Origin: a virus
Strand: one strand, 5' to 3'
IMG/VR virus record: IMGVR_UViG_3300022888_000016
Coordinates: 1-40,832 of that record
DNA length: 40,832 nucleotides
Part shown: piece after piece, positions 2,898-5,789 of the stretch
How positions within the stretch are numbered: the stretch's first letter is position 1
Layout: each line of letters begins with the position of its first letter
Made by a program: the position numbers and the translations under genes
Notes under the pieces: generated by a model
What the model was told of the DNA's origin: nothing
The model's database searches: none
The model's input: the letters and a program-made list of their open reading frames with translations, nothing else

Positions 2898-4859
2898 TTA
2901 CCCCGCCAGTAAACCGCCTCCATTTCCTGGAACAACAGCAGATGGAGGTAACACCACACCTGAAGAATTAGAAATATTTTGTTGTGTAGTTGAGCTGATT
3001 ACTGTTGTTTTTGAAGTTTCTCGGCTCAAATTATTTTGTTGTCTTTGTGCATTGATTAATTCCTGTCCCGAATAATTCATTTGGGACAAAGCTGACAAAC
3101 CTTTAGAAGCCGAACCCAAAGACCTCAGGGTTTTCATATCAATAGATTTCATAAAAGTATTTAAAGCTTTTGCTGATCTTGACGGATCTGAAGCATTGAA
3201 AGTGTTAAAGGCCTGAGCTAGACCTGATACTCCTTCTCCTGCTTGTTTTAATCCTGGACCCATCTTAGCGAATTTTTCAAATTGATTTGCCGGGTCCTTT
3301 TTTTTACTTACTTTCCCTTCTTCTTTATCGTCTTCTCCTAATCCAAAAAACCCACCTACAGCATCTGCTGCTCCCCCTAATAAATTGCCTACTTGACCAC
3401 CTGCTGTTGCGGCGGCAAATGCGCCTAATCCCTTAGATAAACTCATAATTCCGTCACCAACTTCTTTTAAGTTTGCACCTTTTATGTTTCCAAATTTTTG
3501 GATACCGTTAGCTATACCGGACAGTTCTCCTTCATTAGTTGCGAGAGTTACTGATGCTGCGCCTGCTGCAAAGGGTATGAGTGCCGCCCCTATAGCAGCA
3601 ATTCCTATTGCCACTGCTGCCATATTAACCGCATCCAAGTTCGCTAATTCTGAAATACCTTTAACTATGCCATTTATCACTTGCACTATCGAATCCCCTA
3701 CTTGTTTTACTAGAGGTTCGATTTTGCCCACAACACTATCAAAAGTGTCAAATATTTTGTTCACCACACCGCCCATTGTTGCCACAACCTTTTCAATACT
3801 TGAAGTAATAGAAATAATAACATCACCTAGCTTATTTAATACACTCTCTATAACCGGCGCAAATTCTATTACTAGTTCTTTTATATCTGTAATAGCAGTG
3901 CTGATGGCCTGAATTACTGTTTGAATTGTTTCATTTAGTACTGGATCTGTAATGATATCTTTTATTACTGTGAATAATGATGTAATAATTGGAGTTAAAG
4001 CTTTAACTACATTAGCAAGTCCATCAAAAAAAAGGGTAATGTTTGGGCCCATGTTTTTTACCATGGTCCCGAAACCTGTTAGCACTTTATGAAGAATGTC
4101 TCCAATTACTTCTCCTAATGCCTTAATTACACCCGTAACAAATTTTAGTGCTTTGCCTTCACCCGCAATCATTTCAAATACTTTAAATGCTGATGCGAGG
4201 CCAGCAGCAAAAATCGGCAAAGATACTGCCATCACGGTTACTCCTATTAATACTAATGGATTAGCAAAAGAAGCTAAACCCCTAGATAAACCTACAAGGA
4301 AACCTTCAATACCTTTTCCTATTGATTTTATGCCTTTACCCATAGATTTTAATGGATTCATTATAGCACCCGTAAGTTTAGAGAAGAAACCGCCAGATTT
4401 AGGGGAAGCTGGCGTGTCATCTTTTGGCACAGAGCCTTTGTTATCCTCAGTTTTTTGTTCCTGGAGAGCCTCCTGTTCTGCTCTAAATATTGTTTGATTT
4501 AATTTATATTGATCTTCGGCTTTATTCAGTAAAGATGTGTTAATATTTTTTATTGAACCTAGTAAAGATGTGTTAATATCTTTTATTGAACCCAGTAATG
4601 ATTCTAACAGCGTATTTTGCTCCTGGGGAGCTTCCTGTTTTGCTGTAAATATTGTTTGAGTTAATTTTAATTGATCTTCGGCTTTATTCAGTAAAGATGT
4701 GTTAATATTTTTTATTGAACCCAGTAAAGATTCTAACAGCGTATTTTGTCCTAAGAATTCGGTATGTAAACTATCCGACAAGGATAATATTTCTTTACTA
4801 GAACCTTTTCTGTTTTTTGTTAATTTTTCTATTACTGTGTCTAAAGTGGCTGCTGCCAT
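2898..4859 (-). CDS. 29: Tail tape measure protein (gp29 role)
   Basis: A 653-aa, Ala/Gly/Ile-rich, mostly helical protein with hydrophobic stretches at about residues 190-225 (FANPLVLIGVTVMAVSLP) and 415-440 (AAVAIGIAAIGAALIPFAAG), typical of tape measures. T4 gp29 has 590 aa. At about 0.15 nm per residue, 653 aa suggests a tail near 100 nm. Residues 38-80 (QNTLLESLLGSIKNIN...) are repeated at 81-134 with an extra 11-residue insertion. The gene starts one base after the gp51 stop on the same strand, the usual place of a tape measure after its chaperone pair. The C-terminus (VVLPPSAVVPGNGGG) faces the plus-strand 47-aa gene with no gap. Identified by composition and context, not by close similarity to T4 gp29. 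Confidence 0.75.
   Translation of the reverse strand: MAAATLDTVIEKLTKNRKGSSKEILSLSDSLHTEFLGQNTLLESLLGSIKNINTSLLNKAEDQLKLTQTIFTAKQEAPQEQNTLLESLLGSIKDINTSLLGSIKNINTSLLNKAEDQYKLNQTIFRAEQEALQEQKTEDNKGSVPKDDTPASPKSGGFFSKLTGAIMNPLKSMGKGIKSIGKGIEGFLVGLSRGLASFANPLVLIGVTVMAVSLPIFAAGLASAFKVFEMIAGEGKALKFVTGVIKALGEVIGDILHKVLTGFGTMVKNMGPNITLFFDGLANVVKALTPIITSLFTVIKDIITDPVLNETIQTVIQAISTAITDIKELVIEFAPVIESVLNKLGDVIISITSSIEKVVATMGGVVNKIFDTFDSVVGKIEPLVKQVGDSIVQVINGIVKGISELANLDAVNMAAVAIGIAAIGAALIPFAAGAASVTLATNEGELSGIANGIQKFGNIKGANLKEVGDGIMSLSKGLGAFAAATAGGQVGNLLGGAADAVGGFFGLGEDDKEEGKVSKKKDPANQFEKFAKMGPGLKQAGEGVSGLAQAFNTFNASDPSRSAKALNTFMKSIDMKTLRSLGSASKGLSALSQMNYSGQELINAQRQQNNLSRETSKTTVISSTTQQNISNSSGVVLPPSAVVPGNGGGLLAG
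4458..4748 (-). repeat. Tandem duplication within the tape measure gene
   Basis: Codons 38-80 and 81-134 encode near-identical units (QNTLLESLLGSIK.., NTSLLNKAEDQ, QTIF.A.QEA.QEQ). The second unit contains a nested 33-bp duplication, so GSIK(D/N)INTSLL occurs twice in a row. The nucleotide copies are also very similar, which points to recent origin. All changes are multiples of three. Confidence 0.85.
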
Positions 4860-4860
4860 T

Positions 4861-5058
4861 CTAACCCTTCATTTTAGCGTTATGTTCCGATATTCTTTGA
4901 TTTTCTTCTTTGATCCAATTTTGCAATAATATAATATAAATTTGTCGTTCAAACGGTAACATTTCATCAAGGTCACTTAAATTCCAATTATGATGCTGAA
5001 CCAAGGCGAAATTTGTTTGATAATGATTCGCCAAATTTTCATGACTCAGCCCTATCCG
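4861..5058 (-). CDS. 51: gp51-like ORF, probably expressed by -1 frameshift from gp26
   Basis: The -1 frame relative to gp26 is open from 5067 to a TAG at 4863-4861. After the predicted slip site it encodes 65 residues, including ANHYQTNFALVQHHNW, DLDEMLPFERQIYI and LLQNWIKEENQRI, which resemble the small gp51 proteins of marine T4-like phages. No ATG or GTG lies upstream of this core. The only candidates are CTG, ATA and TTG codons without an SD, although neighbouring genes have clear SDs. Expression by frameshifting would give a 309-aa gp26-gp51 fusion. gp51 is called a baseplate-hub assembly catalyst in T4. The tape measure starts one base after this stop. The coordinates mark the part after the slip site. 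Initiation at the weak TTG (5034) is the alternative. Confidence 0.7.
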   Translation of the reverse strand, partial: RIGLSHENLANHYQTNFALVQHHNWNLSDLDEMLPFERQIYIILLQNWIKEENQRISEHNAKMKG

Positions 5059-5077
5059 AAAAAAGAATCAACTCCTT
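4995..5077 (-). promoter_or_regulatory. Candidate -1 programmed ribosomal frameshift signal
   Basis: Read on the minus strand: SD-like AAGGAG (5077-5072), 7 nt, slippery heptamer TTTTTTC (5064-5058) in the correct T TTT TTC phase for gp26, 7 nt, then a two-tier stem. The outer stem is GCTGAG (5050-5045) with TTCAGC (5000-4995), including one G-U pair. The inner stem is GGCGAA (5032-5027) with TTCGCC (5010-5005) and a 16-nt loop. gp26 terminates two codons after the heptamer. These parts and spacings resemble dnaX-type and tail-chaperone frameshift sites. Confidence 0.7.
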
Positions 5078-5789
5078 CTAATTGTATCTTTTTTGATTTT
5101 TCACAATGCTCACATACCCAATTAACGCTATGTGTTAATTTAGGCATACCTTCTAACCATTCTCGTATTTTAGTAAATTGAGAAGAATTTAATGATTCGA
5201 TAAATGTTGTTATTTCTGTTGTTGTGTGATCTTTAGTTTTAAATATTTCTTCGTCATCCTGTATGTATTCAATACATTCGTTTATTAAATTAAAAACGTT
5301 TTCAGTATTTAAATTTCCGTCATTATTAGTATATTTTTGTACGGTGATTATTGTCGGGTATTTCATTTGTATACTAATAGTTTCGGTAAGTATAATTTTA
5401 GATTCTGGTATCTTAGATGTATTTATTTTTATATCATCTATGGGTATTTTGACATTACATGTATCATTATCTGATGATTTTTTACAACAATTAAAATTTT
5501 CTGGTCTAGGTAAATTAATTTCTATTATTTCGCCTACAGACCTGCCCCTAAGTTGTAGGAAAAAATATTCAATATCGAACGGGGCCAATGTTTTGGTGTT
5601 TACTTTTCCGTCCGTACAAGATGTTATAATATCCTGCATTGCTTTAGTCATTGCGGAAATTTCTCCTGACTCTAAAGCAATCAATAAAACTTTTTCTTCC
5701 TTTACCAGAAAAGGTCTATATGTCACTTTTTCGCCTGTAGATGGAATAACTAATTCATAGTTTATGTTGCTCACTTTTGGTAAAGCCAT
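5052..5789 (-). CDS. 26: gp26 baseplate hub / tail-assembly chaperone-like protein
   Basis: 245 aa, against 208 in T4, of the T4 baseplate protein family (PF12322 type). It begins MALPKVSNINYELVIPSTGEK, continues with a conserved PFLVKEEKVLLIALES segment and FDIEYFFLQLRGRSVGE, and has a Cys-rich region (NCCKKSSDNDTC) and a C-terminal CEHC pair (WVCEHCEKSKK) that could form a zinc ribbon. It ends DSFFG, and the two Phe codons form the slippery heptamer for shifting into gp51. A good SD (AAAAGGAG) precedes the ATG. Located between gp54 and the tape measure, it may act as a tape-measure chaperone as well as the hub component it is named for. Confidence 0.85.
   Translation of the reverse strand: MALPKVSNINYELVIPSTGEKVTYRPFLVKEEKVLLIALESGEISAMTKAMQDIITSCTDGKVNTKTLAPFDIEYFFLQLRGRSVGEIIEINLPRPENFNCCKKSSDNDTCNVKIPIDDIKINTSKIPESKIILTETISIQMKYPTIITVQKYTNNDGNLNTENVFNLINECIEYIQDDEEIFKTKDHTTTEITTFIESLNSSQFTKIREWLEGMPKLTHSVNWVCEHCEKSKKIQLEGVDSFFG

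Follow-up and report, generated by a model that had tools for sequence, protein, structure and literature searches.

We analysed a viral DNA record of 40,832 nucleotides (the window) and conclude that it very probably carries the tail assembly chaperone locus of an uncultivated marine T4-like myovirus, in which a -1 frameshift at T_TTT_TTC would yield a gp26-gp51 fusion; we put the probability of this reading at about 0.93. For most ribosomes, translation of gp26 (TAC-N) would end at TAG 5054-5052. In a minority, tRNA-Phe occupying both the P and A sites on T_TTT_TTC would shift by -1, and reading would continue through CGG ATA GGG... to TAG 4863-4861; the product would be a 309-aa gp26-gp51 fusion (TAC-NC). 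If the proteins act like lambda gpG/gpGT, many copies of the short form and few of the long one would coat the tape-measure protein encoded just downstream, recruit tail-tube subunits and then leave. We infer the slippage itself, its efficiency and the roles of AAGGAG and of a downstream hairpin from the sequence, and a lambda-type chaperone function of the gp26/gp51 products from the analogy.

The gp26 locus and its -1 frame

In profile searches the window gp26 matched PF12322 (E 2e-55) and phrog_150 (E 1e-58), the same families to which T4 gp26 is assigned. T4-like genes surround the site in the 40.8-kb record (gp32-type, tape-measure-like, gp51/26, tail tube, gp2, gp4, gp48 and gp53-type), and the chaperone locus adjoins a tape-measure-like gene just downstream (653-aa ORF, phrog_305). 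The N-terminal part of this ORF contains direct repeats (window 4500-4745, minus strand; tandem core 4527-4602), in which a 33-nt unit occurs in 2.3 copies within a longer near-duplicate NTLLESLLGSIKNINTSLLNKAEDQ segment; these repeats are a possible site of tail-length change.

An AlphaFold2 model of gp26 was confident (pLDDT 91, pTM 0.83). Its matches among viral structures were gp26-family proteins including T4-type gp26, with an Acinetobacter gp51 at rank 42. A Foldseek search of the model against the PDB gave no match at E <= 0.001, the HK97 tail assembly chaperone 2ob9 appearing at rank 5 with an E-value of 1.7 and a probability of 0.33, the highest among the matches listed, and a sequence search of the PDB gave no match. 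Given that no PDB match is significant, common descent with the lambda-type chaperones is not shown.

The last codons of gp26 are GGA GTT GAT TCT TTT TTC GGA TAG, so that TTTTTTC at 5064-5058 lies in the gp26 phase T_TTT_TTC. The -1 frame is closed by TGA 5070-5068, one codon before the heptamer, then reads TTC TTT TTT CGG ATA GGG CTG AGT CAT GAA AAT TTG and stays open to TAG 4863-4861. The overlap that permits a shift is therefore about 16 nt, and the heptamer occupies much of it. The sequence-only reading had placed a gp51-like ORF in the -1 frame of gp26, continuing from this in-phase heptamer, and the sequence confirms it. The predicted lengths of 245 aa for gp26 and 309 aa for the fusion (244 + 65) also stand; its placing of the gp26 stop near the heptamer holds, with the minor correction that the stop is the second codon after it, one sense codon (GGA) lying between. 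TTTTTTC occurs 20 times in the window against 17.8 expected, an uninformative count. As the heptamer is not rare by itself, the evidence lies in its phase, place and conservation.

Residues 2-66 of the extension protein match phrog_634, 'baseplate hub assembly catalyst' (E 1e-26), and this match begins at the slip site, well upstream of TTG 5034. A second match of the extension (E 9e-7) is to the C-terminus of the gp26 family profile, phrog_150 positions 231-278 out of 282. Hence this profile does not end at the gp26 stop but reaches into gp51 sequence, which is expected if continuous gp26-gp51 proteins, like T4 gp51, are part of it.

Table 1. Positions in the window of the genes and of the putative recoding elements.
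Feature	Position	Strand	Basis
gp26 / TAC-N ORF, 245-aa zero-frame product	5052..5789	minus	PF12322 (T4_baseplate), phrog_150, alignment, AlphaFold2
AAGGAG, internal Shine-Dalgarno-like element, candidate stimulator, 7 nt upstream of heptamer	5072..5077	minus	sequence; family-wide anti-SD pairing peak
Slippery heptamer T_TTT_TTC	5058..5064	minus	sequence phase and conservation
gp26 zero-frame stop TAG, second codon past heptamer	5052..5054	minus	sequence
-1 frame extension (TAC-C / gp51-like), 65 codons and stop TAG	4861..5057	minus	ORF, phrog_634, alignment
Predicted downstream hairpin, 9+7 bp, 7-nt spacer from heptamer	4995..5050	minus	fold, resampling
Hairpin stem 1 (GCTGAGTCA) and stem 2	5050-5042 with 5003-4995; 5033-5027 with 5010-5004	minus	
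Downstream gene, 653 aa, best matches tape-measure proteins	2898..4859	minus	phrog_305 E 1.6e-15

Conservation of the junction and alternative explanations

Of 25 close viral-contig loci from an initial scan, 23 could be read across the junction, and none of these departs from TTTTTTC, the TAG stop or the -1 frame. Three further scans, with eight isolate phages and T4 added, enlarged the viral-contig set to 216 loci readable at the junction. All 216 keep the -1 extension open for at least 50 codons, and the junction alignment suggested by the sequence-only reading showed an in-phase T TTT TTN in 215. In the only survey locus that lacks it (L088), gp26 ends GAA TTT TTT TAA and the run of seven T enters the stop codon, an arrangement that hints at slippage of one tRNA at a slowly read stop codon.

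Reduction to loci non-redundant at 70% identity left 79 representatives, in which the sites are TTTTTTC (58), TTTTTTT (19), TTTTTTG (1) and ATTTTTT (1). Since Phe-Phe is conserved at the junction, the fair null is codon choice, and T TTT TTN is found in 78/79 representatives against about 20/79 expected from Phe codon use. At the other Phe-Phe pairs in these loci T TTT TTN occurs in only 14/190 (Fisher 8e-52, without correction for phylogeny). A stricter set of 27 representatives at 48% identity retains it in 26.

The site is likewise kept in isolates of distant groups, Kyanoviridae among them: syn9, S-CRM01, Vibrio phages VH7D, TCU-VP04 and vB_VmeM-32, Aeromonas P19 and avDM12, Xanthomonas X1, Stenotrophomonas YB07, Variovorax V45v66, Rhizobium LG08 and P10VF (T TTT TTG) and Pseudoalteromonas XG4 (T TTT TTA). 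Beginning at the slip codons, the extension has the consensus FFRxxLxHxxLxNxYxxNFALMQHHKYSLxELENMxPxEREIY.

A separate translation of gp51, whether reinitiated after gp26 termination or begun at a weak start (TTG 5034, ATA 5055 or CTG 5049), is improbable. Some relatives do have coupled starts, with an ATG overlapping the gp26 stop (S-CRM01, VH7D) or an ATG at codon 5 (several representatives), and a start codon lies within codons 3-6 past the slip site in 29/79 representatives. In 50/79, however, there is no ATG, GTG or TTG in the first 10 extension codons, which excludes ordinary initiation as the source of the conserved N-terminal part. Conserved residues precede TTG 5034, which is itself not conserved, being CTG or CTA in several close relatives. 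A single SD-like element is present; it lies 16-22 nt from ATA/CTG, too far for initiation, but 7 nt from the heptamer. The gp51-like ORF has no plausible start; the sequence-only reading had noted its lack of an ATG or GTG and of an SD. Reinitiation also leaves the in-phase T TTT TTN in 215/216 loci unexplained. Less probable still is transcriptional slippage, in which RNA polymerase would drop or add a U at the T run and the fusion would be read from edited mRNA. Across the family the run ranges from T6 to T8, 7-8 T being found in some loci, but T6 followed by C is short for a bacterial-type RNA polymerase, whose slippage usually needs runs of 8-9 or more, and the strict phase, the SD-like element and a window-clade hairpin at ribosomal spacing fit translational shifting. 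We give the least weight to a sequencing indel or pseudogene having split one gene artificially. There is a homopolymer run at the junction, and T4 gp51 is a single continuous gp26-gp51-like protein, but 216 contigs drawn from many assemblies show the same frame relation, as do isolate genomes, and this conservation refutes a split in practice.

The comparative evidence strongly supports what the sequence-only reading had proposed, namely a programmed -1 frameshift giving a short gp26 and a long gp26-gp51 in a lambda G/G-T-like arrangement before the tape-measure gene. Relatives with an SD-led ATG for gp51 and no slippery run, which that reading had named as counter-evidence, were not found.

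The phages with an ATG at the gp26 stop might also make gp51 alone. TAATG overlaps in two loci (L237:3702-3710, L234:3804-3812) place a -1 frame ATG at the gp26 stop, and these phages could make both the fusion and free gp51. Databases annotate a short separate gp51, for example in syn9 and S-CRM01, and this stands in favour of separate translation. The annotated syn9 gp51 (L027:3771-3914) starts within the conserved domain; this start is very probably wrong, and the same error is likely in other cyanophage records. Many marine and environmental T4-like genomes have gp51 annotated as a small gene of its own; this annotation is very probably incomplete, the real product being a gp26-gp51 fusion.

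Candidate stimulators and the two-gene arrangement of T4

Most loci have an SD-like element (GAG GGN or GAA GGN) just upstream of the heptamer. Across the 79 representatives the mean best anti-SD energy is -6.8 kcal/mol, compared with -5.05 +/- 0.18 under synonymous resampling, an excess of about 10 standard deviations that falls to 2.6 (z -2.6) with only the 27 distant representatives. AAGGAG of the window is a candidate frameshift stimulator.

The predicted hairpin of the window clade has 16 pairs, with 99% of cells paired in 18 sequences. When codons are resampled synonymously with the -1 protein preserved, the hairpin has a z averaging about -4.5 over these sequences, which are related and not independent; the window-type sequence alone gives -3.5. 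Covariation in the clade is weak, one pair having changed on both sides in two sequences and 10/16 pairs never varying. Synonymous variability differs between paired and unpaired third positions (P 0.026, on small numbers, and two paired columns do vary), and several codons with paired third bases (CTG, AGT, TTC, CAG) are invariant. A 126-nt fold around the junction was uninformative (z 0.54); the structure signal is seen only for the 58 nt past the heptamer, against both dinucleotide shuffles and synonymous resampling. These data support, though they do not prove, a role of the window-clade hairpin as a stimulator.

Against synonymous resampling the syn9-type cyanophage clade shows no such structure signal (z about 0), and a large marine clade shows an intermediate one (z -1.9). 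Stenotrophomonas YB07, of an unrelated group, has a strong predicted structure past the heptamer (L028:3741-3830; synonymous-null z -4.6), perhaps an independent stimulator. As other T4-like groups keep the heptamer, often with the SD-like element, and not the hairpin, the stimulators appear to have turned over around a fixed slippery site. The clade-specific SD-like element and hairpin offer a testable case of such evolution.

In T4, genes 26 and 51 are divergent and separate. T4 gp51 matches PF12322 over residues 1-201 (E 4e-52) and phrog_634 over residues 147-246 (E 1e-23), and is therefore a gp26 paralogue plus extension, the counterpart of the frameshift fusion. T4 gp26 ends GAG TTC TTT GAG TTA CTA TAA, without a slippery run. 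The T4 gp51 (L034, T4 112000-120000) is thus a full gp26 paralogue with the extension (48 aa), and gp26 lacks the run in T4 and in three other loci (L230, L231, L233). Where T4 uses two genes, the frameshift-type phages apparently obtain both products by frameshifting.

A 42-sequence tree places all 30 frameshift types on one side of a branch with support 98/98 and the gene 26 and 51 products of six two-gene phages on the other. The tree is unrooted and has several long branches, so we infer the direction of change; it is compatible with one switch between the frameshift and the duplicated-gene state. According to PMC3004832, T4 gp51 is required for assembly but is not part of the finished particle, and the same source lists gp26 among hub assembly chaperones, both as expected of tail assembly chaperones. 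T4 gp51, long called an essential hub assembly protein of unknown function, would then be explained as a long-form tail assembly chaperone.

A combined model is slightly more likely than not. In the window clade a dnaX-like cassette would drive the frameshift, made up of an SD-like element 7 nt upstream, T_TTT_TTC, and a two-stem hairpin 7 nt downstream that overlaps gp51 coding and is under synonymous constraint; the stimulators would have turned over with the slippery site fixed, and the T4 lineage would have swapped frameshifting once for duplication (26 and 51).

Comparison with known systems

The sequence-only reading knew of no report of frameshifting for T4-type gp26 and gp51, and on novelty it was overtaken by earlier work. 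In 2022 Vladimirov, Gautam and Davidson reportedly identified the tail assembly chaperones of T4-like phages; frameshifting reportedly persists in several groups of these phages, with T4 itself relying on genes 26 and 51. Their paper (Virology 566:9-15) is cited in PMC12846349 for polyT frameshift signals in the TAC-N genes of T4-like phages, and in PMC10885494 for some T4-like phages carrying a short gene and a longer fused gene instead. As cited there, these chaperones have a poly-T -1 frameshift in TAC-N. The gene family is the one found in the window. The window is a further, uncultivated member, and the main frameshift claim is already published in kind. Novelty is thus low for the frameshift and moderate for the window clade's dnaX-like cassette (AAGGAG and hairpin), which is possibly new.

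The E. coli dnaX cassette consists of an upstream SD-like element, a slippery heptamer and a hairpin a few nucleotides downstream. The window resembles it in having an SD-like element, a heptamer and a predicted hairpin whose 7-nt spacer falls in the 5-9 nt range for such a structure; it differs in that the gene is unrelated, the run is of U whereas dnaX has an A-run, and the window stimulators are candidates.

Atkins et al. (2016; PMC5009743) describe G-T frameshifting as widely conserved in long-tailed phages 'except T4'. Lambda gpG/gpGT has a short product and a rarer -1 fusion directly before the tape-measure gene, as is proposed for the window, and the lambda-type products are absent from virions (PMC5009743). 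The two are without demonstrated sequence similarity, the window site is T TTT TTC and not that of lambda, and the window extension is about 65 aa. The chaperones of Vandenendeviridae and Andersonviridae also have a conserved -1 frameshift with a poly-T motif at the end of TAC-N, but there the motif is GTTTTT and the phage families are other than that of the window (PMC12846349).
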